This document shows positions 1,998-42,593 of a stretch of 64,000 nucleotides of DNA, piece by piece. Position 1 is the first letter of the stretch, and each line of letters starts with the position of its first letter. Position numbers and translations under genes: made by a program. The notes under the pieces are model-generated. The model saw nothing but the letters and a program-made list of their open reading frames with translations, was not told the DNA's origin and ran no database searches. This DNA comes from Streptomyces barkulensis. Its GTDB lineage: Bacteria; Actinomycetota; Actinomycetes; Streptomycetales; Streptomycetaceae. The DNA lies in contig NZ_PGSG01000059.1 of NCBI RefSeq assembly GCF_002843305.1, positions 1 through 64,000 of the forward strand, read 5' to 3'.

Positions 1998-4900
1998 CCC
2001 TGTCAGCAGACACTGCCCGTACACCGGAGACCCTGGTGGCGGATCTGCGCGAACGCGGAGTCCAGTTGTGGGAGGACGGGGGACGGCTGAGGTTCAGGGC
2101 CCCCCGCGGCGTTCTCACCGACGAGTGGCGCGAGGCGCTGGCCGCCCGCAAGGAGGCCGTCCTGGCGTGCCTGCGGGCGGAGTCGCCGCCGGTCGTCCGC
2201 GATCTTGAGCACCGGTACGACCCGTTCCCCCTCACCGACGTGCAGTCCGCGTACCTGCTGGGCCGGCGCGAGGCCTTCGCCTACGGAGGGGTGGGCTGCC
2301 AGGTCTACGCGGAGATGGAGTACGCCGAACTCGACCCCGCACGGCTGGAGTCGGCCTGGAACCGGCTCGTCGAGCGGCACGACATGCTGCGCGCGGTGAT
2401 CTCCCTGGACGGCCACCAACGGGTCCTCCCGGAGGTGCCCGACTACCGGATCGAGGTGACGGACGTACGCGGCGCCTCCCCCGCGGAAGCCCACAGGGCC
2501 AGGGCCGAGGTGCGTGCCGCGATGGACCACAGCGTCCACGACCCCGAGCGGTGGCCGCTGTTCGCGCTGCGCGTGACCCTGACCGACGCCTGCGCGGTGC
2601 TGCACGTGTCGGTCGACTTCCTGATCGCGGACTACCTCAGCGTGCGGACGCTGATGCGCGAGCTGCGGATGCTCTACGACGGCCTGACGCCGCCCCCGCT
2701 CGACATCACCTTCCGCGACTACCTGAGCGCGGCCGCGCGCCGCCGGGAGAGCCCCGCCTACGAGCGTGACCGCCAGTACTGGACACGCCGGCTGGACGAG
2801 CTGCCCACCGCCCCGGAACTCCCCGTGCGCGAGGGGGCCGAGTACCTGCCCGGGCGCTTTCACCGGCTGTCCTCGGCCCTCTCCCCGGAGCAGTGGCAGG
2901 CGGTCCGCCGGGCCTCCGCCCGGTGGAACCTCACACCGTCCGCGACGGTACTGGCCGCGCTCGCCGAGGTGATCGGCCGGTGGAGCGCGAAGCCGCGGTT
3001 CTGCCTCAACCTCACCCTGCTCAACCGGGAGCCGCTGCACCCGCAGGTGGACCGGCTCGTCGGCGACTTCACCACCGTCAGCCCGCTGGCGGTGGACACC
3101 GCCCCCCTCTCGCCGTTCGGGGAGCGCGCCCGCGCGCTGCAGCAGCGGATGTGGGAGGACATGGACCACCGGCTCCACAGCGGGGTGGAGGTGATGCGGG
3201 AGCTGGCGCGGCGGCGCGGATCCGCCGCGGCGCTGCTGCCCGTGGTCTTCACCAGTACCCTCGGGGCCGCCGGGGACGCCGGCGGCTCCGGGGAGGCCGC
3301 CGCGCAGGACGACCCGGCCGAGCGCCCCGTCCACGGGATCAGCCAGACGCCGCAGGTGTGGATCGACGCGCAGGCGGTGGAGTCGGACGGCTGCCTGGAC
3401 CTGCGCTGGGACGTGCGCGAGGGGGTCCTGCTCCCGGGCGTGGCGGAGGAGATGTTCGACGCGCTGGTGGCACTGCTGCGCCGGCTGGGCGACGACGCGG
3501 CCGTCTGGGAGGAGCCCTCCCCGGTCCCGCTGCCGCAGGATCAGCAGCGGCGCCGGGACGCGGCGAACGACACCGCGGCCCCCCTGCCGGACGCGCTGCT
3601 CCACGACGACCTGGTGGCCGCCGCGCGGGCGTACCCCGACCGGCCGGCGGTCGTCTCCCGCGGGCGGACCCTGAGTTACGGCGAACTGCTCGACCGGGCG
3701 GAGGCGGTGGCCGCACGGCTGCGGGAGGCCGGGTGCACGCCCGGGGAGGTGGTCGGCCTGGTCATGGACAAGGGCTGGGAACAGGTGGCCGGGGCCCTGG
3801 GAACCCTGCTGGCCGGCTGCGCCTACCTGCCGCTCGACGCCTCCCAGCCGCGGCTGCGCCGCGACCGGATCCTCGACGACGCCGCGGTCCGCCACGTGCT
3901 GGTCCAGTCGTGGTCCCTGCCGGTGGACGACTGCGGTCGGCACGCCGTCGCGGTGGACACACTCGACGTCCGCGGACGGGACGGCGAAGGCGCCGGGGCC
4001 CCGCCCGCCGGCCCGGACGACCTGGCGTACGTCGTCTACACCTCCGGATCGACCGGTGCGCCCAAGGGGGTGATGGTCTCGCACCGGGCGGCCCTCAACA
4101 CGCTGCGGGACGTCAACCGGCGGTTCGACGTCACCGCGGAGGACCGTGTGCTCGGCCTGGCGGGCATGGGCTTCGACCTGTCGGTGTACGACGTGTTCGG
4201 CGTGCTGGGCGCCGGCGGCACCCTCGTGCTGCCCGACCCGGAGCGGCGCGCCGACCCCTCGCACTGGGCGCAGCTGCTCGCCGAGCACCGGGTGACCGTG
4301 TGGAACTCCGTCCCCGCCCAGCTCCAGTTGCTGGAGGACTACCTCGCCGTCGAGCCCGTCGCCGGTCTGGACGCACTGCGGCTGGCCCTGCTCAGCGGCG
4401 ACTGGATCCCCGTGACCCTGCCCGACCGGGTCCGCCGCCGCCTGCCCGGCCTGCGGCCGGTGAGTCTCGGCGGCGCGACCGAGGCGGCCGTGTGGTCCAT
4501 CGCCCACCCCGTCGGCGAGGTGGATCCGGCCTGGCGCAGCATCCCGTACGGCAAGCCGCTGGCCAACCAGACCTTCCACGTCCTGGACCCGTGGCTGCGG
4601 CCCTGCCCGGAGCACGTGCCCGGCGAGCTGTACATCGGCGGGGCCGGCCTCGCCCTGGGATACCTGGGCGACGCGGAGAGGACCGCCGAGCGGTTCGTGC
4701 ACCACCCCCGCACCGGTGAGCGGCTGTACCGCACCGGGGACAGGGGGGTGTACGGCGATGACGGCGTCATCGAGTTCCTCGGCCGGCAGGACCGCCAGGT
4801 CAAGATCCGGGGTCACCGGATCGAGCTGGCCGAGACCGAGGCGGCCCTCTCCTCCCACCCGGCCGTGGTGTCGGCCCACGCGCTGGTCGACGGCGACGGG

Positions 4901-7567
4901 CCGCTGGAGCGCCGCCTGCTGGCGTACGCCCGGCTGGCCACCGGGGCGCGGCCGGTACCGGACCGCGGCACCGAGCGGTTCCTGGCGGCGGCCTCGGCCC
5001 GCGGGGACGCCGCGGTCCGGGACGTCGACCCCGCCGAGCTGGCGGAGTTCATGCGGCGGCTGGACCGGGCCGGCCTGCTGGCCATGCTGCACGCCTTCAA
5101 CCGGCAGGGCCTGTTCCGGTCGCCCGGCGACCGCCACACCGTGCCCGAGGTGCTGGAGGCGACGGCGGCGGCGCCCTGCCACCACCGGCTGGTGCGCCGC
5201 TGGCTGAAGTCCCTCACCGAGGAGGGCCTGCTCACCCGCCACGGCGACGCCTACGCGGCGGCCGGGCCCGTCGGCGGGGAGGACCTGGACGCGGCGTGGC
5301 GCGAGGTGGACGCGCTCCAGCGCGAGGAGTGGTACAAGGCCGACCTCATCGGCTACTTCCGCACCTGCGCCGAGCGACTGCCCGAACTGCTGCGCGACGA
5401 GATCGATCCGCTGCCGCTGCTCTTCCCCGAGGGAGGGCTGGACCTCTCCTACGCCGCCTACCGCGACAACGTCCTCAGCCGCTACGTCAACCACGCCGTC
5501 GTCGGGCTGGTCCGCGAGCTGGCCGCGTCGCACGAGGGGCCACTGCGGCTGCTGGAGGTGGGCGCGGGCGTCGGCGGGACCAGCACCGTGCTCGTCCCGG
5601 AGATCGCCGACACCGATGTGCGCTACCTCTTCACCGACGTGTCGCAGTTCTTCCTGGGCGAGGCCCGGCGACGTTTCGGCGACCGTGTCGACTACGGCCT
5701 GTTCGACATCAACGGCGACGCGCGGGAGCAGGGCCGGCTCCCGAACTCGCAGGACGTGGTGCTGTGCGCCAACGTCCTGCACAACGCCCGGCATGTGGGC
5801 ACCGTCCTGGCGCGGCTGCGCGAACTGCTGGCTCCCGGGGGGTGGCTGGTCTTCATCGAGACCACGCGGGAGAACGTGCAGATCATGACCTCGATGGAGT
5901 TCATGATGCCCGACAGGGATCCGGCCAAGTGGGACTACGAGGACCTGCGCCGGGGGCGGGACCAGACCTTCCTCGACTCCGGGCAGTGGCGGCGCCTGCT
6001 CCGGGAGGCCGGCGCGGACACCGTCCTGGAACTGCCGCACGCCGACGGCGTGACGGCACCGCTGGGGCAGCGCGTCTTCGCGGCCCGTTTCAAGGCGGAC
6101 CGGATCCCCGTGCGCCCCGAGGACGTGCTGGAGCACGCCGCCCGGCGCGTCCCGGAGTACATGCTGCCCGCACGGCTCGAACTCCTCGACGACCTGCCGC
6201 TGACCGCCAACGGCAAGACCGACACCGCGGTGCTGCGCGGCTGGGCACAACGGCACCGCGCCCCCGACGGCACCGAACTGCCCGGCGGAGCGGAGCACCT
6301 GGACGACCTGGAGCGGCGCGTCGCCGCCGTGTGGGCCGACCTGCTGCGGCTGCCCCGGGTGGGGCGCGACGACGACTTCTACCGGCTGGGCGGGGACTCG
6401 CTGCTGGTGGCGCGGCTGGCGGGGCGTGTCCGCGAGGAGATCCCCGAGGCGGCCGGGCTGCTGTACGACACGGTGCTGCGCGCCGTGCTGAGCCGTCCGA
6501 CGGTGGCCGCCCTGGCGGAGTTCCTGCGCGACTCCCGCGAGCACACCGAAGGCGCCGGCGGGGACGGCCCGGCCGACTCGCCGCTGGTCCCGCTCGGCGG
6601 CGCCGGTCCCTCCGGGTCCGGCGCGGAGGGACCGGAGGGAGCCGGGGACGCGGCGATGCGCGTGCTGGTCCACGACGGGATGGGCACGCTGGCCGCCTAC
6701 CGGCCGCTGATACCGCTGCTGGACGGACCGGGCCCGCTGGTGGGGCTCGCCGTCCCCGCGCACGAGCCGTACGCGCGGGAGGATCCCGAGGACCTCATCG
6801 TGCGGCGTGCGGCCCACTACACGCGCTGCCTGCTGGAGACCGGGCACACCCGCTTCCAGGTCGTCGGCTACTGCATGGGCGGGCTGCTGGCCACGGAGGT
6901 CGCCCGGCAGCTGGCCGAGTCGGGGGCGCTGGTGGAGAACCTGACCATCGTGAGCAGTTACGCACTGCCCCACACCATTGAGGACGAACTGGTGCTGGAG
7001 TACGTCTTCGCGCGGCTGCTGAACGCCGACACCGAGGAGCTCGGCTATCCCGACGACGCCGCGACCGCGCACGTCTTCCGGGCGGTGCTGGAGCGCACGC
7101 CCGGCCGGGTGCCCTCCGGATCCCCGGACTCCCTGACCGGGGGCCTCGTGGTGGAGGAGGCGGCACGCAGGTTCGCCGCGCTGCGGAAGGTGCCGCAGCG
7201 GGAGCGGCTCGCCGCGATCGGCCGCGCGGCACGCGGCGACGGCGAGAGCGGGGGCGGCGAGAGCGGGGGCGACGGATTCCCGATGGACCTGGAGGCGGTC
7301 TACTCCCTGTACCGCACGAGCATGACGGCGGTCACCCGGCACCGGGCCATGCCGTACGCGGGCGATGTCGTCCTGCTGCGCGAGGACGAGGCGACCGGCT
7401 TCCTGCCCTGGCTGCGTGCGGACATGACGGAGTTCTGGGGGGAACTGTGCCTGGGTGAGCTCGAGATCGTCGACGTGCCCGGCGACCACTTCTCCTGTAT
7501 GCGCCCGCCGCACGTCGGCCGTGTCGCGCGCGAGCTGGACCGGCTGCACCGGGGAGGCGGCCGGTGA
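1994..7567 (+). CDS. NRPS, PchF-like: TubC_N docking, Cy, Cys-A with embedded MT, PCP, TE
   Basis: GTG start overlaps the preceding stop, with GAGGAGGG upstream. Residues ~10-60 form a TubC_N-type docking domain (LVADLRERGVQLW). The Cy domain carries the DxxxxDxxS motif as DFLIADYLS (D208, D213, S216). The A domain has A3 YVVYTSGSTGAPKG and a code I read as DLYNLSLVWK, the Cys code with one conservative change. A SAM methyltransferase (LLEVGAGVGGT, near residue 1185) is inserted between A8 and A10 (LTANGKTD, ~1403), as in PchF. The PCP motif is LGGDSL (~1465). The terminal thioesterase has GYCMGG with Cys1627 where Ser is usual. It should add and cyclize a second Cys, methylate it (N- or C-methylation cannot be told from sequence) and release the product. 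Confidence 0.95.
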   Translation: MTLSADTARTPETLVADLRERGVQLWEDGGRLRFRAPRGVLTDEWREALAARKEAVLACLRAESPPVVRDLEHRYDPFPLTDVQSAYLLGRREAFAYGGVGCQVYAEMEYAELDPARLESAWNRLVERHDMLRAVISLDGHQRVLPEVPDYRIEVTDVRGASPAEAHRARAEVRAAMDHSVHDPERWPLFALRVTLTDACAVLHVSVDFLIADYLSVRTLMRELRMLYDGLTPPPLDITFRDYLSAAARRRESPAYERDRQYWTRRLDELPTAPELPVREGAEYLPGRFHRLSSALSPEQWQAVRRASARWNLTPSATVLAALAEVIGRWSAKPRFCLNLTLLNREPLHPQVDRLVGDFTTVSPLAVDTAPLSPFGERARALQQRMWEDMDHRLHSGVEVMRELARRRGSAAALLPVVFTSTLGAAGDAGGSGEAAAQDDPAERPVHGISQTPQVWIDAQAVESDGCLDLRWDVREGVLLPGVAEEMFDALVALLRRLGDDAAVWEEPSPVPLPQDQQRRRDAANDTAAPLPDALLHDDLVAAARAYPDRPAVVSRGRTLSYGELLDRAEAVAARLREAGCTPGEVVGLVMDKGWEQVAGALGTLLAGCAYLPLDASQPRLRRDRILDDAAVRHVLVQSWSLPVDDCGRHAVAVDTLDVRGRDGEGAGAPPAGPDDLAYVVYTSGSTGAPKGVMVSHRAALNTLRDVNRRFDVTAEDRVLGLAGMGFDLSVYDVFGVLGAGGTLVLPDPERRADPSHWAQLLAEHRVTVWNSVPAQLQLLEDYLAVEPVAGLDALRLALLSGDWIPVTLPDRVRRRLPGLRPVSLGGATEAAVWSIAHPVGEVDPAWRSIPYGKPLANQTFHVLDPWLRPCPEHVPGELYIGGAGLALGYLGDAERTAERFVHHPRTGERLYRTGDRGVYGDDGVIEFLGRQDRQVKIRGHRIELAETEAALSSHPAVVSAHALVDGDGPLERRLLAYARLATGARPVPDRGTERFLAAASARGDAAVRDVDPAELAEFMRRLDRAGLLAMLHAFNRQGLFRSPGDRHTVPEVLEATAAAPCHHRLVRRWLKSLTEEGLLTRHGDAYAAAGPVGGEDLDAAWREVDALQREEWYKADLIGYFRTCAERLPELLRDEIDPLPLLFPEGGLDLSYAAYRDNVLSRYVNHAVVGLVRELAASHEGPLRLLEVGAGVGGTSTVLVPEIADTDVRYLFTDVSQFFLGEARRRFGDRVDYGLFDINGDAREQGRLPNSQDVVLCANVLHNARHVGTVLARLRELLAPGGWLVFIETTRENVQIMTSMEFMMPDRDPAKWDYEDLRRGRDQTFLDSGQWRRLLREAGADTVLELPHADGVTAPLGQRVFAARFKADRIPVRPEDVLEHAARRVPEYMLPARLELLDDLPLTANGKTDTAVLRGWAQRHRAPDGTELPGGAEHLDDLERRVAAVWADLLRLPRVGRDDDFYRLGGDSLLVARLAGRVREEIPEAAGLLYDTVLRAVLSRPTVAALAEFLRDSREHTEGAGGDGPADSPLVPLGGAGPSGSGAEGPEGAGDAAMRVLVHDGMGTLAAYRPLIPLLDGPGPLVGLAVPAHEPYAREDPEDLIVRRAAHYTRCLLETGHTRFQVVGYCMGGLLATEVARQLAESGALVENLTIVSSYALPHTIEDELVLEYVFARLLNADTEELGYPDDAATAHVFRAVLERTPGRVPSGSPDSLTGGLVVEEAARRFAALRKVPQRERLAAIGRAARGDGESGGGESGGDGFPMDLEAVYSLYRTSMTAVTRHRAMPYAGDVVLLREDEATGFLPWLRADMTEFWGELCLGELEIVDVPGDHFSCMRPPHVGRVARELDRLHRGGGR

Positions 7568-35668: not shown

Positions 35669-36730
35669 TCAGGTCTGCGTCTCCGGCTCGTACGCGTCGG
35701 GATGCAGGCCGAACGTCCAGGCGACGCCCTCGCGGGCGGTCCGTGTGGACGGCGGCACCCTCAGCCAGTACGTGCGGTGCGTACCGTCCGGCTCGGGAGT
35801 GGAGTTGACCACCTCGACCGTCAGCACGGGCTCGTCGCCCTCCAGGTCGATCCGCCACAGCACGCCGGTGGAGTCCCGGTGGACCGGCCGGGCGCCGGAC
35901 TCGGACAGGTAGCGGTCGTAACCGTAGTGCTCCAGCATCACGCGGCGCAGTTCGGCGTTCTCCTCCGCACGGATGCGTTCGGGGGTGAGGGCGTCCAGCC
36001 CGGCGAGGAAACCCGCCGGGACCGGCATGCCCTTCCAGGCGTACAGGGCGAAGCCGTCGGGGAAGAGCAGTGCGGGGCCGTCGCTCCGGTCGAGCCGTCC
36101 GGCCTCGTCGCGGTGGAGCTCCACCGGGCGCTCGGCGACGACCGCCACCCGCTCGTAGGGCCACCACCAGCCCGCGGCGCGGGCGACCGCCGCAAGCCCT
36201 CCCAGCGGACCGGTCCCCTCCCCGCCGCCGAGAGCGGCCAGCCAGGGTGCGTCGTGCTGGCCGAGCACCGCGTCCAGCAGGGCCAGCCGCACCGCGGGCT
36301 CGTCCGCGGGCGAGGGCGAGGGCGAGGCATCCTCGACGACGCCGGTGCGTACGCGCTCCACCAGGAGTGTGGTGGTGTCCCACAGCGGTGCGCCGGTGCG
36401 CGCCCAGTGCTCCGCCCACCCCACCGGGCCCAGCCTCCCGTGCAGCCGCTGCCGCTCCGCCGCCCACGGCAGGGTGCGGACCTCCCGCCGTACGCCGCGC
36501 CCCGCTCCCCGCAGGGTTCGTACGGCGGCCACGGCCGCGCGCGGCGAGCCGGCCCACACGATGCGCTCGGGCTCGGCGAGCCCGGCCGTGCGGTACGCCA
36601 GGCGCACCCCGGCCTCCGCGGCGGGCCGGTCGGCCGGGCCGGTCCGTGCCGCGACCTGGCGCCACCGCTCCACCTCCCCCACCGTGCCCACCAGTTCACT
36701 CGTCCGGGTGTTCGTCACCGTCACCGTCAC
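35669..36730 (-). CDS. DUF6745-type protein
   Basis: Start among stacked GTG codons (36733, 36730, 36724) behind AGAAGGAG; I take 36730. 353 residues. Features: RRMLRHYG-like LRRVMLEHYGYDRYL, DGPALLFPDGFALYAWKGMPVP, DSTGVLWRIDLEGDEPVLTVEVVNSTPEPDG and PPSTRTAREGVAWTFGL, which match the pattern I associate with DUF6745 proteins. No catalytic motif is obvious. It forms a two-gene unit with the 108-residue gene and is divergent from the STM4015 operon, hinting at a shared process. Confidence 0.72.
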   Translation of the reverse strand: MTVTVTNTRTSELVGTVGEVERWRQVAARTGPADRPAAEAGVRLAYRTAGLAEPERIVWAGSPRAAVAAVRTLRGAGRGVRREVRTLPWAAERQRLHGRLGPVGWAEHWARTGAPLWDTTTLLVERVRTGVVEDASPSPSPADEPAVRLALLDAVLGQHDAPWLAALGGGEGTGPLGGLAAVARAAGWWWPYERVAVVAERPVELHRDEAGRLDRSDGPALLFPDGFALYAWKGMPVPAGFLAGLDALTPERIRAEENAELRRVMLEHYGYDRYLSESGARPVHRDSTGVLWRIDLEGDEPVLTVEVVNSTPEPDGTHRTYWLRVPPSTRTAREGVAWTFGLHPDAYEPETQT

Positions 36731-36768
36731 CACTCCTTCTCCGCTCTTCCCCGGCCGGCCCACGACGC

Positions 36769-37095
36769 TCAGTCGGCGACGATCCGCACGGCGCCCGGGA
36801 CGTACTCGCGTTGCCGGACCACCCGGTACCAGCCCCTGGGCAGCGGTATCGCGGCGTGCTCCTCGTGCACCACCCGCCCGCCGTCGGGGAGGTGGAGCAG
36901 CAGCGGTCCGAACGGCCCCGCCTCCCGCACGAGCCGGCCCGGTCCCACCACGGCGTGCGCGTGCCCGGTGACCTCGCCCAGGGCCAGCACCATCCGCCCC
37001 CGGGCGTCCCGCGGCAGTCCGGTCCGCCCCGTGGCGCCGTCCGGCACGGCCTCCTCGTCCACCGGCACGATCAGCACGTCTCCCTGGCGGTACAC
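36769..37095 (-). CDS. Small conserved protein paired with DUF6745
   Basis: GTG 37095 follows GAGGGGAGA on the minus strand; 108 residues. MYRQGDVLIVPVDEEAVP, LALGEVTGHAHAVVGPG, HEEHAAIPLPRGWYRVVRQREYVPGAVR form a compact beta-rich protein. His residues at GHAHAV and HEEHAA recur as in cupin-like or metal-binding folds, but I do not recognise a named family. It probably shares a transcript with the DUF6745 gene. Confidence 0.72.
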   Translation of the reverse strand: MYRQGDVLIVPVDEEAVPDGATGRTGLPRDARGRMVLALGEVTGHAHAVVGPGRLVREAGPFGPLLLHLPDGGRVVHEEHAAIPLPRGWYRVVRQREYVPGAVRIVAD

Positions 37096-37161
37096 AGAGC
37101 TCTCCCCTCGACGTCCGCACCGGTCGGTCCGGCGGCGGTGAACGGAAAGCTAGGGCAGGGG

Positions 37162-37209
37162 TCTGACAGAGCACCCCGAAGGACCCGGGCCGCGCAGCGG
37201 GCTGTCAGA
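37162..37209. promoter_or_regulatory. Inverted repeat in the divergent promoter region of the STM4015 operon
   Basis: tctgacag (37162-37169) and ctgtcaga (37202-37209) are perfect 8-base complements, 32 bases apart, between the divergent start codons at 37095 and 37260. They may be two half sites for one regulator controlling both directions. Confidence 0.4.
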
Positions 37210-37259
37210 GGCGGTTGATAGAACGTTCCGTACTGTCGGCACGCGTTCGGGGGAGCCCC

Positions 37260-38231
37260 ATGACCGTCAACGAGCACCTGCGGGAGCTGTACGCCCTGCC
37301 CGCCCACACCTACGTGCCGCCCGGCACGGACGGCGGCCCGGCGGACCCCCTGCCCGCGGCAGCGTCCGTGGCGTGGCGCCTGTCCTACGACCCCTACGAC
37401 GACGACTTCCCGGCCGAGGACTTCGAGGACGTCTGGCGCGGCTTCCTGGCGGCCGTGGACACCACGGCCGTCCGCGCCCTGATCATCGGCCAGTGGGGCG
37501 AGGCCTACGAATCGGACTCCGGTCTCGCCGTCGAACTGCTCACCTCGAACGCGGACCGGTTCCCCGCCCTGGAGGCCGTGTTCATCGGCGACATCGTGGC
37601 GGAGGAGTCGGAGATCTCCTGGATCGAGCAGACCGACGTCACCCCGGTCCTGGAGGCCTATCCCCGGCTGCGCGAGTTCGGGGTGCGCGGTGGTTCCGGC
37701 CTGACGCTCCGCCCTCTGCGCCACGAGCACCTGCGCACCCTGGTGTTCGAGGCGGGCGGACTGCCCGGCGGCGTCGTGCGCGCGGTCGCCGAAAGCGACC
37801 TGCCCGCGCTGGGCCGGCTCGAACTGTGGCTCGGCGTCAGCGAGTACGGGGGCGACGCCACCGTGGAGGACCTGGCTCCGATCCTGACCGGGGAACGCCT
37901 GCCCGCACTGCGCGGCCTGGGGCTGAAGAACAGCGAACTGCAGGACGAGATCGCCGCCGCCGTGGCCGGAGCGCCCGTGGTGGCGCGGCTGCGCGCCCTG
38001 GATCTGTCCATGGGCACCCTCACCGACCGCGGTGCCGAGTCGCTGCTGAGCGGGCAGCCTCTCACCCACCTGGCACGACTCGACCTCGCCCACCACTTCC
38101 TGAGCGACGCCGTGATGGAGCGGCTGCGCGAGGAACTGGAGAGCGCCGGAGTCGATGTGGACCTCTCCGACCAGGAGAAGCCGGACGAGTACCGCGGCGA
38201 GGTCTGGCGCTATGTCGCCGTCTCCGAGTGA
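37260..38231 (+). CDS. STM4015-family LRR-like protein
   Basis: ATG 37260 follows GGGGGAG; 323 residues. Repeating leucine-rich units are visible: FPALEAVFIGD, YPRLREFGVRG, HLRTLVFEAG, LPALGRLELWLG, LPALRGLGLKNS, VARLRALDLSMG, LTHLARLDLAHHFLSD. This matches the STM4015 family, always first in the STM4015-4011 gene set. LRRs are protein-interaction scaffolds, so it may be a substrate carrier or recognition subunit. Cytoplasmic: no signal peptide. Confidence 0.88.
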   Translation: MTVNEHLRELYALPAHTYVPPGTDGGPADPLPAAASVAWRLSYDPYDDDFPAEDFEDVWRGFLAAVDTTAVRALIIGQWGEAYESDSGLAVELLTSNADRFPALEAVFIGDIVAEESEISWIEQTDVTPVLEAYPRLREFGVRGGSGLTLRPLRHEHLRTLVFEAGGLPGGVVRAVAESDLPALGRLELWLGVSEYGGDATVEDLAPILTGERLPALRGLGLKNSELQDEIAAAVAGAPVVARLRALDLSMGTLTDRGAESLLSGQPLTHLARLDLAHHFLSDAVMERLREELESAGVDVDLSDQEKPDEYRGEVWRYVAVSE

Positions 38232-39423
38232 TCCCGGCGGCAGCGGCCCCGGCGGCGGGGCGCCGCGGTTCGCCGTCGTCGGCAACCCCGGAAACCGCCG
38301 GGTGGAGTCGTTCACGGCGGCCGTCGCCGGTGCGGGGCTGCCCGCGCCCCGCGTACTGCCGTGGGCCGAGGTGCTGACCGGCGGCGTGCGGTTCGCGGCG
38401 GGCGAGACCGTGCGGATCGACTCGCCCGGCGAGGATCCGCGGGTCGAGCGTCTGCTGCGCGGGGTGGACGATCCGGCGCGCGTGGAGGGCACGGCCCGCT
38501 GGTACGCGGGCTTCACCACGGCCGTACGCCGTGTCGCCGGGGCCGCCCGGGCCGCCGGGTGCGCGCTGCTGGACGGCCCGGACGATCTGGCGGTGCTCTT
38601 CGACAAGCGGCTGTGCCACGGAGCGCTGTCCGGGGCTGGTGTCCCGGTGCCCCCCTCACCGACCTCCGGCCCCCGCGCCGCGCCGGTGACGGGCTGGGAG
38701 GACGTGCGCGCGGCGATGCGTGACACGGGGATGCGCCGGGTCTTCGTCAAACTCGCCCACGCGTCCTCCGCCTCCGGGGTGCTGGCCGTCGAGTCGGGCG
38801 GGCGCGGCCGGTGGCGCGCCACCACATCCGTCGAACGCACCCCGGACGGGAGTCTGTTCAACTCCCTGCGGGTGCGGCGCTACGACGGCGAGTCCGGCAT
38901 CGCCGCCGTGGTCGACGCCCTGGCGCCGGACGGCCTGCACATCGAGCGCTGGCTGCCCAAGGCCTCCCAGCACGGCAGGGCGGCCGACCTGCGGGTGGTC
39001 GTGGTGGCCGGGGAGGCGACCCATGCCCTGGTGCGCACCGGCCACTCCCCCATGACCAACCTCCACCTCGGCGGTGCCCGCGGCGATCTGGCCGCGGCCC
39101 GCGCCGCGGCGGAGGCGGCCGGAGTGTCCTGGACGCGGGTGCTGGAGGTGTGCGAACGTGCCGCGGCCTGCTTCCCCGCCACCCTGTGCGTCGGTGTGGA
39201 CCTGCTGCCAGCCGCCGGATGGCGGCGTTTCACCGTCGGAGAGGTGAACGCCTTCGGCGACCTGCTGCCCCGGCTGACCGGACTGGCCGGCGGCCGGGCC
39301 GAGGGGCGGGACACCTACGCGGCACAGGTCGACGCCGTTCTGCGCGGTGCGGTACCGGGCGGACCGGCTGCCGGCCGGCCGGCAGCCGGAGGACGGGAGG
39401 AGGCCCGCCGTGCGGCCCGGTGA
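38212..39423 (+). CDS. STM4014-family ATP-grasp-like protein
   Basis: ATG 38212 lies 20 bases inside the STM4015 gene; 403 residues. FAVVGNPGNRRVESFTAAV opens a preATP-grasp-like domain; DKRLCHGALSGAGVPVP and RRVFVKLAHASSASGV (Lys180) match ATP-grasp substrate- and ATP-binding regions, and CVGVDLLPAAG...FTVGEVNAFGDLLP the metal-binding end. ATP-grasp enzymes join a carboxylate to an amine or thiol through acyl phosphate. Its substrate here is unknown. The C-terminal ~25 residues are Gly/Ala/Arg-rich. Confidence 0.85.
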   Translation: MSPSPSDPGGSGPGGGAPRFAVVGNPGNRRVESFTAAVAGAGLPAPRVLPWAEVLTGGVRFAAGETVRIDSPGEDPRVERLLRGVDDPARVEGTARWYAGFTTAVRRVAGAARAAGCALLDGPDDLAVLFDKRLCHGALSGAGVPVPPSPTSGPRAAPVTGWEDVRAAMRDTGMRRVFVKLAHASSASGVLAVESGGRGRWRATTSVERTPDGSLFNSLRVRRYDGESGIAAVVDALAPDGLHIERWLPKASQHGRAADLRVVVVAGEATHALVRTGHSPMTNLHLGGARGDLAAARAAAEAAGVSWTRVLEVCERAAACFPATLCVGVDLLPAAGWRRFTVGEVNAFGDLLPRLTGLAGGRAEGRDTYAAQVDAVLRGAVPGGPAAGRPAAGGREEARRAAR

Positions 39424-40264
39424 CGTCGAAGCCCGCGCGGGCATCCCGGACATGAACCGGATCGTGGGCAGCCACGACCTGCTGCTGGTCACTCTGGACA
39501 CCCTGCGCCACGACGTGGCCCGCGATCTGGCGGCCGAGGGCGCCATCCCCAACCTGGCACGGCACCTGCCGGACGGGCGATGGGAGGAGAGGCACTCCCC
39601 CGCCAGTTTCACCTACGCCTCCCACCAGGCGTTCTTCGCCGGTTTCCTGCCCACTCCCACCGCTCCGGGGCCGCATCCGCGACTGTTCGCGGCGCGTTTC
39701 GAGGGCAGTGAGAGCACCGCGGGGAGCACCTGGGTCTTCGACGCGCCGGATCTGGTGACCGGGCTGGCACAGGCCGGCTACCACACGGCGTGCATCGGAG
39801 GCGTGGGCTTCTTCAACAAGCGCGGCGCACTCGGTTCGGTGCTGCCCGGCCTGTTCGCCGAGAGCCACTGGGAGCCGGAGTTCTCCGTCGCCTCCCCCAC
39901 CTCCTTCGAGGCTCAGGTCGCCCGTGCCGAGGAGGTGGTGGCCGCGCTCCCGGCCGGGAAGCGGCTGTTCCTGTTCGTCAACGTCTCGGCGCTGCACCAG
40001 CCCAACTGGTTCCACCTGCCCGGTGCCACGGCCGGGGCCGGGGACTCCCTCGCCACCCACGCGGCGGCGCTGCGCTATGTGGACCGGCACATCGGGCGCC
40101 TGTTCGCCGCCGCGAGCAGCCGCCGCCCGTGCTTCACCGTCGTCTGCTCCGACCACGGCACGGCCTACGGGGAGGACGGCCACACCGGCCACCGGATCGG
40201 CCACGAGGTGGTCTGGACGGTGCCGTACGCCCATTTCACCCTCGACGCCTGCGAGCCGCGATGA
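39410..40264 (+). CDS. STM4013/SEN3800-family hydrolase (alkaline phosphatase superfamily)
   Basis: GTG 39410 has GGGAGGAGG upstream and overlaps STM4014 by 14 bases; ATG 39452 is an alternative. 284 residues. LLLVTLDTLRHDV (Asp30) is the first metal site of the sulfatase/phosphatase superfamily, SFTYASHQAFFAGFLP carries the likely Thr/Ser nucleophile segment, and VVCSDHGTAYGEDGHTGHRIGHE (Asp248, His249 and later His) the second metal site. Expected activity is phosphate or sulfate ester hydrolysis or transfer. No signal peptide, so it acts in the cytoplasm. Confidence 0.87.
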   Translation: MRPGDVEARAGIPDMNRIVGSHDLLLVTLDTLRHDVARDLAAEGAIPNLARHLPDGRWEERHSPASFTYASHQAFFAGFLPTPTAPGPHPRLFAARFEGSESTAGSTWVFDAPDLVTGLAQAGYHTACIGGVGFFNKRGALGSVLPGLFAESHWEPEFSVASPTSFEAQVARAEEVVAALPAGKRLFLFVNVSALHQPNWFHLPGATAGAGDSLATHAAALRYVDRHIGRLFAAASSRRPCFTVVCSDHGTAYGEDGHTGHRIGHEVVWTVPYAHFTLDACEPR

Positions 40265-41691
40265 GCACCACGACCGTTTCCGCCGCCGTTCCGTTCCCGG
40301 ACGGCGCCCCGGGCCCGCACCGGGACCCGTACCGGAGCCCGTACCAGAGCTATGTGTACGCCTATCCGCACAAGACGGCCTACCGGCGGCTTCCGGAGCG
40401 GCCTGCGCTGCGCGGGCTGTGGGCGCGGGAGAGGACCGACGCGCTCTCGCTCTATCTGCACATCCCCTTCTGCGAGGTGCGCTGCGGCTTCTGCAACCTC
40501 TTCACCCGCATCGGCGCGCCCGACGGGCTGACCGGCGCCTACCTCGACGCGCTGGAGCGGCAGGCGGGTCCGGTGCGCGAGGCGCTGGGCGAGGGCGCCC
40601 GGTTCGCCACCGCGGCCTTCGGCGGCGGCACCCCCACCTTCCTGACCGCCGCCGAGCTGGAGCGGCTCTGCGACATCGCCGAGGAGCGGATGGGAGCGGA
40701 TCTGCGCGCGGTGCCCCTGTCGGTGGAGGCGTCCCCGTCGACCGCCACCGCCGACCGGCTGGCCGTCCTGGCCGGGCGCGGCACCACACGGCTGAGCCTC
40801 GGGGTGCAGAGCTTCGTCGACGCCGAGGCACGGGCCGCGGTGCGCCCCCAGCGGCGCTCGGACGTCGAGGCCGCGCTGGGCCGCGTCCGGGACGCGGGCA
40901 TCCCGGTGCTCAACATCGACCTGATCTACGGGATCGAGGGGCAGACCACCGCCACCTGGCAGCGCTCCCTGGACGCCGCGCTCGCCTGGGAGCCGGAGGA
41001 GTTCTACCTCTACCCGCTCTACGTCCGCCCGCTGACCGGTCTGGGACGCGCCGTCGCGGCCCCCGACGCCCCCGACGCCTCCGGTGTACCCGACCCCCGG
41101 TGGGACGCGCAGCGGCTGGCCCTGTACCGCCACGGCCGCGACCATCTGCTGGCACACGGCTACGAGCAGGTGTCGATGCGGATGTTCCGCCGCACCGGGA
41201 CGGCGGCCGCCGCAAGGACGGGCGGGGGCCCGGCCGACCACGCCTGCCAGACCGACGGCATGGTGGGGCTGGGTTGCGGCGCCCGGTCCTACACCTCCGC
41301 CCTGCACTACTCCTTCGACTACGCCGTGGGGATGCGCCGGATACGTTCCATCATCGACGACTACGTCTCCCGCCCGGCCGAGTCCTTCGCCCACGCGGAG
41401 GTCGGCCGGTGGATGGACACCGACGAGGCCCGCCGCAGGCACCTGCTCCAGTCGCTGCTCCGGGCCGAGGGGATGGAGACGGCGGAGTACACGGACCGGT
41501 TCGGTGCGCCGCCCGCCGAGCACTTCCCCGCCGAACTGGCCGGCTTCGCCGAGCGCGGCTGGCTGGACGAGGGCGGGGCCCCCGGGCGGCTGCGGCTGTC
41601 GGCGGAGGGCCTGGCCCACTCCGACGCGGTCGGCCCGGCCCTGTTCTCCCCGTCCGTGCGCGCCGCGATGGCCGCGTACGACCCGAGGTGA
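40261..41691 (+). CDS. STM4012-family radical SAM protein (HemN-like)
   Basis: ATG overlaps the hydrolase stop (ATGA); 476 residues. YLHIPFCEVRCGFCNLF gives the CX3CX2C cluster (Cys71, Cys75, Cys78). AAFGGGTPTFLTAAELERL, RLSLGVQSF, NIDLIYGIEGQTTATW and the C-terminal winged-helix-like region resemble HemN/HemW, but gene context sets it apart from heme synthesis. It should use a 4Fe-4S cluster and SAM for a radical reaction on the unknown STM substrate. Confidence 0.92.
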   Translation: MSTTTVSAAVPFPDGAPGPHRDPYRSPYQSYVYAYPHKTAYRRLPERPALRGLWARERTDALSLYLHIPFCEVRCGFCNLFTRIGAPDGLTGAYLDALERQAGPVREALGEGARFATAAFGGGTPTFLTAAELERLCDIAEERMGADLRAVPLSVEASPSTATADRLAVLAGRGTTRLSLGVQSFVDAEARAAVRPQRRSDVEAALGRVRDAGIPVLNIDLIYGIEGQTTATWQRSLDAALAWEPEEFYLYPLYVRPLTGLGRAVAAPDAPDASGVPDPRWDAQRLALYRHGRDHLLAHGYEQVSMRMFRRTGTAAAARTGGGPADHACQTDGMVGLGCGARSYTSALHYSFDYAVGMRRIRSIIDDYVSRPAESFAHAEVGRWMDTDEARRRHLLQSLLRAEGMETAEYTDRFGAPPAEHFPAELAGFAERGWLDEGGAPGRLRLSAEGLAHSDAVGPALFSPSVRAAMAAYDPR

Positions 41692-42593
41692 CGGAGATTG
41701 CCGTGGACCTGACCCTGCTCTACCGCGGGCCGCTGGCCTCGTGCGACTACGACTGCCCGTACTGCCCGTTCGCCAAGCGGCGCGACTCCCGCGAGCAGCT
41801 GCGCGCCGACCGGGAGGCGTTGGAGCGCTTCTCCGGCTGGGTGGCGGAGCAGCGCGAGGACCGGCTCTCGGTGCTGTTCACCCCGTGGGGCGAGGGCCTG
41901 GTGCGGTCGTGGTACCGGCACACCCTGGCCGGGCTGAGCCGGCTGCCGCACGTGGCACGGGTGGCGATCCAGACCAACCTGAGCTGCCGCACCGACTGGC
42001 TGGACGACGCCGACACCGGCACCCTCGCCCTGTGGTGCACCTACCATCCCGGCCAGACTCCCTACGGGCGTTTCCTGGCCAGGTGCCGCGAGCTGGCGGA
42101 CAAGGGCGTGCGCCACAGCGTCGGAATCGTCGGCCTGCCCGGCCATCTGCACCACGCCCGGCGGCTCCGCGCCGATCTGCCCGAGCACGTCTACCTGTGG
42201 GTCAACGCCGCCGAGGGCCATGCATACACGGACGAGGAGGCCGACCGGTGGACGGCGATCGACCCCCTCTTCCCGTACAGCCGCCACCCCCACCGCAGTG
42301 CCGGGCTCCCCTGCCGCACCGGTGAGTCCGTGGTCTCGGTGGACGGTGCCGGTACGGTGCGGCGCTGCCACTTCGTCCCGGCACCGCTGGGCAACCTCTA
42401 CGACGGCTCCTGGCGCGCGGCACTGCGGCCCAGGCCCTGTCCGCTGGCCGTCTGCGACTGCCACATCGGATACGTCCACCTGGAGTCGCTGCCGCTGTAC
42501 GACGTCTTCGCGGGCGGTGTCCTGGAGCGGATACCGGCCTCCTGGCCGGTATCCGGGGCGCGGACTCAGCGCTTGACGCCGACCCCGCCGTAG
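41688..42593 (+). CDS. STM4011-family radical SAM protein
   Basis: GTG overlaps the previous stop (GTGA); 301 residues. ASCDYDCPYCPFAKR carries CX3CX2C (Cys19, Cys23, Cys26). The C-terminal part has five more Cys (209, 227, 251, 256, 258) in GLPCRTG, RRCHFV and CPLAVCDCH, resembling a SPASM/Twitch-type auxiliary cluster domain. VSVDGAGTVRRCHFVPAPLGNLYDGSW is typical of SPASM proteins. It is the last gene of the operon and overlaps the convergent methyltransferase by 28 bases. Confidence 0.92.
   Translation: MTEIAVDLTLLYRGPLASCDYDCPYCPFAKRRDSREQLRADREALERFSGWVAEQREDRLSVLFTPWGEGLVRSWYRHTLAGLSRLPHVARVAIQTNLSCRTDWLDDADTGTLALWCTYHPGQTPYGRFLARCRELADKGVRHSVGIVGLPGHLHHARRLRADLPEHVYLWVNAAEGHAYTDEEADRWTAIDPLFPYSRHPHRSAGLPCRTGESVVSVDGAGTVRRCHFVPAPLGNLYDGSWRAALRPRPCPLAVCDCHIGYVHLESLPLYDVFAGGVLERIPASWPVSGARTQRLTPTPP

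Follow-up and report, generated by a model that had tools for sequence, protein, structure and literature searches.

The five genes STM4015 to STM4011 of Streptomyces barkulensis lie, together with a divergent gene pair, at positions 35669 to 42593 of a 64,000-nucleotide stretch of contig NZ_PGSG01000059.1 (the window). Comparison of loci supports them as one unit, and its first product, the leucine-rich repeat (LRR) protein STM4015, ends in a conserved Glu. The second gene encodes an ATP-grasp ligase, STM4014, with a fold close to those of LysX, ArgX and RimK. Back-to-back motifs of the RecA-NDp (PafBC) type face both the operon and the divergent unit, which encodes a conserved protein of 108 amino acids (H108) and a DUF6745 protein. 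Judged by these motifs, the Streptomyces units are very probably induced by DNA damage, and the STM4015 Glu is, on balance, probably used as a covalent site. The features are as follows.

35669 to 36730, minus strand: DUF6745 gene; PF20530 covers the C-terminal ~206 amino acids, and the start is uncertain, with GTG around 36724 to 36733
36769 to 37095, minus strand: H108, first gene of the divergent unit, with HAH and HEEH motifs and a C-terminal Asp
37147 to 37168, minus strand: RecA-NDp-like (PafBC-type) motif TGTCAG-N10-TAGCTT, facing H108 and DUF6745
37203 to 37224, plus strand: RecA-NDp-like motif TGTCAG-N10-TAGAAC, facing STM4015 to STM4011; the final -10 base deviates from TAnnnT
37260 to 38231, plus strand: STM4015, LRR protein by family and structure-profile match, the proposed carrier or substrate
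38208 to 38228, plus strand: codons of the STM4015 C-terminal heptapeptide RYVAVSE, the final residue being the conserved Glu
38155 to 39423, plus strand: STM4014, ATP-grasp ligase with a LysX/ArgX/RimK-like fold; alternative start at 38212
39452 to 40264, plus strand: STM4013, alkaline-phosphatase-superfamily hydrolase with Thr54 in the nucleophile column
40261 to 41691, plus strand: STM4012, HemN-like radical S-adenosylmethionine (SAM) protein with CX3CX2C
41703 to 42593, plus strand: STM4011, radical SAM protein with SPASM/twitch-like cysteines

The pathway as a whole, which has about an even chance of being right, would be induced by DNA damage and centred on STM4015, a carrier or substrate that STM4014 would load and the radical SAM enzymes would modify. 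In Streptomyces, the back-to-back promoters would switch on both divergent units together. STM4015, with its LRR body, variable and mostly acidic linker and Glu-ended tail, would be the carrier or protein substrate, and STM4014 would activate the terminal Glu with ATP and attach an amino compound to it. STM4011 (SPASM/twitch type) and STM4012 (HemN-like) would perform radical chemistry on the tethered group, while STM4013, a putative phospho-hydrolase or -transferase with a Thr nucleophile, would take off or transfer a phosphoryl group, a step for which Salmonella and Bacteroides also have a HAD protein. The DUF6745-H108 pair would be a separate, damage-linked two-gene module, recruited as a helper. 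A first-pass annotation of the window, made from its letters alone, had proposed that the LRR protein is a scaffold for building a modified small molecule or peptide; this remains the best reading, to which the damage-type promoters and the STM4015 C-terminal Glu are new additions.

Gene set, order and co-occurrence

The assignment of the five genes to the STM4015 to STM4011 families stands, since all five products exceed the curated NCBIfam cut-offs: 408 bits against 275 for STM4015 (NF038076), 451 against 175 for STM4014 (NF038074), 422 against 250 for STM4013 (NF038075), 629 against 380 for STM4012 (NF006067) and 416 against 200 for STM4011 (NF038073). On the minus strand, the DUF6745 gene matches PF20530 of Pfam at 380 bits (cut-off 27). 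The NCBIfam models are hypothetical equivalogs for STM4015, STM4014 and STM4013, a subfamily for STM4011 and an equivalog for STM4012, and none gives a function beyond hydrolase or radical SAM protein. In passages of the open-access literature, no function was found for the STM names, in agreement with the first-pass annotation, nor for DUF6745, 2RA8 or, among the papers listed, the combination of radical SAM with LRR, and no paper naming DUF6745 was found there. The genes had been said to overlap throughout; this holds for the start of STM4014 (38155 or 38212), which can fall within the STM4015 frame, and for the ATGA common to STM4013 and STM4012, and fails at the 28-nucleotide gap between STM4014 and STM4013 and the 11-nucleotide gap between STM4012 and STM4011.

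The loci compared are the closest 80 of at least 544 STM4013 relatives (77-98% identity), so that the counts lean to near kin; loci from other phyla come from plasmid records. Full flanks are present at 66 of the 80 loci, of which 52 have all seven genes, 12 have only the five STM genes and two lack a detectable H108 alone. The seven are more than chance neighbours: the full set is retained at 52 of 66 loci, whereas none of seven flanking genes of the window recurs in more than 7 of 87. The order 4015-4014-4013-4012-4011 is common to Actinomycetota, Deinococcota, Alpha- and Gammaproteobacteria and Bacillota, with unrelated flanks; the plasmid records with this order are from Deinococcus (three), Methylobacterium, Paenibacillus and Salmonella. 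The B. finegoldii copy (locus L123, 4513 to 8530) looks damaged, with a truncated STM4013 and no annotated STM4012 gene; its STM4011 is fused to HAD, and its STM4015 is of the WGR-LRR type.

A search of 99 Kitasatosporales genomes for STM4011, STM4014 and STM4015 (STM4012 and STM4013 were not part of it) found all three in 44 genomes and none in 53. The two discordant genomes are G281, which has STM4011 only, as an incomplete match, and G199, discussed below. With the same five-gene order in four phyla, this result upholds the earlier proposal that the genes belong together. The co-occurrence with DUF6745 that was to be surveyed is also present: DUF6745 is found in 41 of the 44 genomes with the STM set and in 3 of the 55 others (G199, G228 and G242), a Fisher p of ~1e-20 that, in related genomes, is not an independent-sample probability. 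A scan for a further conserved open reading frame (ORF), covering ORFs of at least 25 amino acids that overlap known genes by no more than 30%, found none outside the seven genes with relatives in more than 20 other loci of 85; the best families, in 20 other loci, are ordinary flanking genes.

Beyond these loci, STM4013 is rare across the phylum (above cut-off in 6 of 197 genomes), and one STM4015 locus was found on viral contigs. At megablast sensitivity, no place in 5,426 E. coli genomes covers 80% of the Salmonella operon plus HAD; partial matches occur in 94 genomes, and the eight that are listed consist of a HAD segment of ~160 bases. In the Salmonella plasmid record (L122) the operon adjoins typA and glnA, genes that are normally chromosomal. 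The host genome is 6.53 Mb in size, and the nearest named relative is S. verrucosisporus, whose STM4013 is 98% identical. Rfam and tRNA scans of the window gave no match. Against the PADLOC profiles, six of the seven proteins have no match, and STM4012 matches PDC-M51A across ~100 residues (23 bits, 6e-6).

Promoters and the DUF6745-H108 module

The motif TGTC[AG]G-N10-TA recurs between the two units throughout the sample. Among the 73 H108 genes, 63 are complete and have a complete divergent STM4015 gene less than 700 nucleotides away; of these 63 intergenic regions, 60 have the motif facing STM4015, 61 have it facing H108 and 58 have both, compared with a mean of 0.1 and a maximum of 1 in 40 dinucleotide shuffles. 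On the H108 side, TGTCRG-N10-TAnnnT is found in 61 of 63 regions and the full strict consensus in 35. The consensus given in passages of PMC5656591 is tTGTCRgtg - 8 nt - TannnT, and the motifs of the locus have the same spacing. PafBC works through this motif, according to passages of PMC6789036 and PMC8223512, and it lies upstream of the ultraviolet (UV)-inducible SCO6735 of S. coelicolor in those of PMC5087735 and PMC9411070. Over all Actinomycetota loci, 77 of 84 have a motif no more than 250 nucleotides from the first STM4015 gene, among them 14 of the 18 loci without H108; for H108 the figure at the same distance is 63 of 66.

The TAnnnT form of the pattern has 55 sites in the S. barkulensis genome, against 11 for a reversed control pattern, and one lies 56 nucleotides upstream of a recA match. 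Behind 30 of the 55 sites 27 genes were found, ten of which were picked by eye for a Pfam scan. Seven of these have DNA-metabolism domains (NucS, exonuclease-BRCT, AlkZ-like glycosylase, RecD2, NAD-dependent DNA ligase, a DEAD helicase match and uracil-DNA glycosylase); the other three are PhoH, DUF4132 and one without a match. The DUF4132 gene (L179) is another possible damage-response gene. The same genome has two full-length recA-family matches and two recA pieces at contig edges (contigs C45, C107, C26 and C27). In S. venezuelae, the radical SAM gene vnz_31145 is induced by mitomycin C and is likened to enzymes that repair UV thymine cross-links (passages of PMC9380542); considered as a member of the STM operon, it could not be tied to it.

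By their distribution, DUF6745 and H108 are a separate module. They lie upstream of the STM operon in Streptomyces (divergent) and Methylobacterium (co-directional) and downstream of it, convergent, in Deinococcus and genus g147; these three different placements beside the same operon point to a functional link, not an inherited neighbourhood. In Skermanella and D. ficus the pair occurs without STM genes inside 6-8 kb, and it is absent at the Paenibacillus, Salmonella and Bacteroides loci. H108 relatives are also found in nine cyanophage records, and in Microcystis phage Ma-LMM01 (L127, 3968 to 6257) a DUF6745-like gene, whose product aligns at 22% identity with that of the window, comes after the H108 relative and is itself followed by uracil-DNA glycosylase. 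With members in Deinococcus, Methylobacterium, Skermanella and, for H108, cyanophages, the earlier description of the two proteins as Streptomyces-specific partners no longer holds. H108 has no NCBIfam or Pfam match at E 0.001 and matches phrog_27831 (2e-13), which has no function assigned in phrog. Its AlphaFold2 (AF2) model, with a predicted local distance difference test (pLDDT) score of 81, is mostly beta; it has no PDB match (best E 0.88) and weak viral matches (best E 0.04), and a profile search against solved structures gave nothing.

Upstream of all four Deinococcus H108 genes there is a palindrome with 3, 4, 5 and 4 mismatches from TTATGTCATTGACATAA, the radiation/desiccation response motif (RDRM). 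Shuffled upstream regions never matched it in three cases and did so in 2% for the 5-mismatch site; at no more than four mismatches the RDRM-like sites are unique in three loci, and the fourth locus holds a second, unrelated 5-mismatch site. The site of D. ficus is one base off the ddrB site, and that of D. psychrotolerans one base off the ddrF site, as given in passages of PMC1978522. The DUF6745-H108 module is thus tied, at the level of motifs, to damage-type sites of two different regulators in two phyla. LexA-type boxes give no consistent signal at the distant loci; single matches with 0-1 mismatches occur in Bacteroides and D. psychrotolerans.

The STM4015 terminus and the enzymes

The best solved relative of STM4015 is a B. 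fragilis protein, 2ra8 (E 2e-90), followed by ribonuclease inhibitor; LysW is not among its 33 solved-structure matches. STM4015 of Bacteroides bears an N-terminal WGR domain. Between the invariant L271 and the C-terminus lie 45-55 residues (32 aligned sequences), which include a variable, mostly acidic linker followed by R-[YF]-[VT]-[AS]-V-[GSA]-E. Variation at positions -30 to -8 of the linker is 1.9-3.3 bits per position, and the last 30 residues have, on average, 6.7 more acidic than basic residues (range -3 to 13). Of 131 complete genes of more than 250 amino acids, 130 encode a final Glu; the one that does not runs out of frame into an unrelated end. Glu is also last in all 129 genes left from 132 after length and completeness filters, including 9/9 outside Actinomycetota, in 31 of 35 further matches (one viral contig and additional genomes) and in 14/14 orphan genes away from the operon. 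The four enzymes are less strict in their last residue, the commonest one accounting for 39/87, 53/94, 71/89 and 24/89.

At least two STM4015 copies are present at 29 of 84 Actinomycetota loci, as would be expected of a substrate or carrier. Five loci (L131, L133, L136, L138 and L150) have three or four copies per operon, one of those in L138 being a fragment, and L133, L136 and L150 each have one copy that ends in Ala. At L158 (8344 to 11685) an orphan STM4015 gene immediately precedes one with PF24410 wHTH-HSP90_Na-associated repeats, a relative of which adjoins the STM4015 place at L159.

LysX is the first match of STM4014 in a profile search (8.5e-5), and the AF2 model (pLDDT 87) has LysX, ArgX-LysW and RimK, then PsnB, as its nearest Foldseek neighbours. 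In VIA-align, where rows less than 1 Z apart count as tied, the model superimposes on ArgX with LysW at Z 24.1 (root-mean-square deviation 2.7, 270 aligned), LysX at 23.4, RimK at 23.3, glutathione synthetase at 21.6 and DcsG at 21.4. In 36 sequences there is no variation at K199, R294, T301-N302, D349 and N365 and hardly any at E363; the catalytic roles of these residues are assumed from known ATP-grasp motifs. According to passages of PMC4490483, the last residue of LysW is a Glu whose side-chain carboxyl ArgX couples to an amino group. The core of the carrier reading is that a ligase nearest to the LysX/ArgX/RimK group has as its neighbour a protein whose terminal Glu is conserved. In genus g147 (L151-L155), an orphan Glu-ended STM4015 adjoins a divergent STM4014-like protein, and the radical SAM genes of the operon are not beside it. 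Such a pair was considered as a second loader module and set aside, the ATP-grasp motif residues looking degenerate by eye in three sequences.

STM4011 keeps eight cysteines, made up of CX3CX2C and a SPASM/twitch-like set: C14, C18, C21, C204-x12-G217-x4-C222, C246, C251 and C253 are invariant in 22 sequences. The SPASM/twitch motif consists of CX3CX2C plus C-X9-15-G-X4-C and more C-terminal cysteines. The Pfam SPASM model is reached weakly, by Bacteroides STM4011 (18 bits, cut-off 21.5), and the SPASM part matches SkfB in the PDB (8e-4). STM4012 has HemN and the methyltransferase NocN as its nearest solved structures and falls well below the family cut-offs of HemN (117.8/325 bits), HemW (124.3/205) and ChuW/HutW (125.7/400).

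STM4013 belongs to the alkaline phosphatase/sulfatase superfamily in a structure-profile search. Thr54 is invariant (19/19 sequences) in what is taken, by eye and from known sulfatase motifs, to be its nucleophile column. A formylglycine sulfatase needs Cys or Ser there, which speaks against this identity; of the phosphoester or sulfoester hydrolase proposed earlier, the sulfoester hydrolase of formylglycine type is thus not supported. A paralogue cluster in the same genome (L032, C30:1-14000, 3340-6766), with genes for a radical SAM protein, a dTMP-kinase-like protein, a hypothetical protein, the hydrolase and NUDIX, hints at phosphate esters; in the matching S. albidoflavus cluster (L125, 4860-8309) the radical SAM protein is MoaA-like. 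Salmonella and Bacteroides loci add a HAD phosphatase.

The cysteine pattern of STM4011 and its match to the peptide-modifying enzyme SkfB, the PsnB neighbour of STM4014, the tail motif and the multiple STM4015 copies would also fit a pathway like those of ribosomally synthesized and post-translationally modified peptides (RiPPs). STM4015 would then be a large precursor whose RYVAVxE tail is cross-linked or rearranged by the radical SAM and ATP-grasp enzymes and then released, by the logic of pyrroloquinoline quinone, mycofactocin or graspetides. This is unlikely: Glu(-1) alone is invariant in the 129 tails, Tyr/Phe(-6) being Ser in Methylobacterium and Asn in Salmonella, the conserved genes of the locus include no protease, and the ORF scan above, which had been proposed as a check, yielded no widely conserved short ORF and so no graspetide-type precursor gene of that kind beside the ATP-grasp gene.

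Less probable still is that the LRR protein is modified merely as a switch of a signalling or DNA-repair scaffold, with no small molecule released. The damage-type promoters, the WGR domain in Bacteroides and the position of the H108- and DUF6745-like genes directly before uracil-DNA glycosylase in Ma-LMM01 would suit such a role, but a switch would hardly seem to need so many enzymes: two radical SAM proteins, a hydrolase and a ligase, plus HAD in Salmonella and Bacteroides. Just as improbable is an ordinary small-molecule pathway, with STM4014 joining two free small molecules and no role for STM4015 beyond that of scaffold or regulator. In its favour, the free-substrate enzymes glutathione synthetase and DcsG follow closely in fold and the STM4013 paralogue lies in a nucleotide-like cluster, but the conserved C-terminal Glu would be left unexplained.

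Several observations weigh against the proposal of a damage-induced system with a Glu-loaded STM4015. Four of the 35 further STM4015 matches do not end in Glu, namely three orthologous copies with Ala, which sit in four-copy operons, and a fragment with Lys. Fixed last residues are also found in H108 (Asp, 71/73) and DUF6745 (Thr, 57/62), so the argument rests on the Glu together with the neighbouring ligase and not on conservation alone. The Z gap between the best STM4014 matches and other ATP-grasp enzymes is less than 3, and the graspetide ligase PsnB is among the top Foldseek matches. Genome G199 has two STM4015 genes that keep the Glu, and neither STM4014 nor STM4011 was found in it. The STM4015-facing motif meets the strict consensus in 0 of 63 regions (the spacing in 60), because its -10 is mostly TAGAAC. 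Outside Actinomycetota no RecA-NDp motif is found at seven STM4015 and seven H108 genes, and the RDRM is found at 0 of 3 Deinococcus STM4015 genes. For S. venezuelae, passages of PMC9380542 state that conservation of the mycobacterial PafBC motif was not detected in a first search.

Relation to known systems

The analysis turns five families named by Salmonella locus into a testable system with a candidate inducer (DNA damage), a candidate handle (the STM4015 Glu) and a candidate loader (STM4014). If this is right, the system would use LRR proteins and radical SAM enzymes for a carrier-protein chemistry, and it would also add a new branch to the DNA-damage response of bacteria. A broader reading, somewhat less likely than not, is a new class of biosynthesis: a LysX-like ligase would load the C-terminal Glu of LRR proteins, which would thereby act as covalent carriers, and two radical SAM enzymes would then make a protective compound or cofactor for use after DNA damage in bacteria of several phyla, with DUF6745-H108 as the damage-response partner.

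The locus resembles the PafBC/RecA-NDp regulon in promoter motif and spacing and departs from it in the -10 of the STM4015 side; passages of the relevant papers do not name the unit as a member. A damage link of this arrangement was not found in print, no search having paired the STM401x names with DNA damage. All five NCBIfam families of STM4015 to STM4011, catalogued by locus number, are represented. The likeness to the SPASM RiPP systems (SkfB, PqqE and MftC) lies in the cysteine pattern of STM4011 and its SkfB match, but the substrate here would be an LRR protein of ~320 amino acids. RimK, which acts on the C-terminal Glu of ribosomal protein S6, is a fold neighbour of STM4014, and a RimK-RpsF complex is among the Foldseek matches; what sets STM4014 apart is its operon, which also encodes radical SAM enzymes and an LRR partner.

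Streptomyces pathways that use amino-group carrier proteins (AmCPs), including that of vazabitide, are described in passages of PMC9570651. As in the LysW/LysX/ArgX carrier system, an ATP-grasp ligase, here one nearest by profile and fold to the LysX/ArgX/RimK group, adjoins a protein whose C-terminal Glu is conserved and whose tail is mostly acidic. The proposed carrier is, however, an LRR protein without LysW homology rather than the small LysW, its tail reads RYVAVxE where that of LysW is EDWGE, and tailoring by radical SAM enzymes would take the place of LysZ/Y/J/K.

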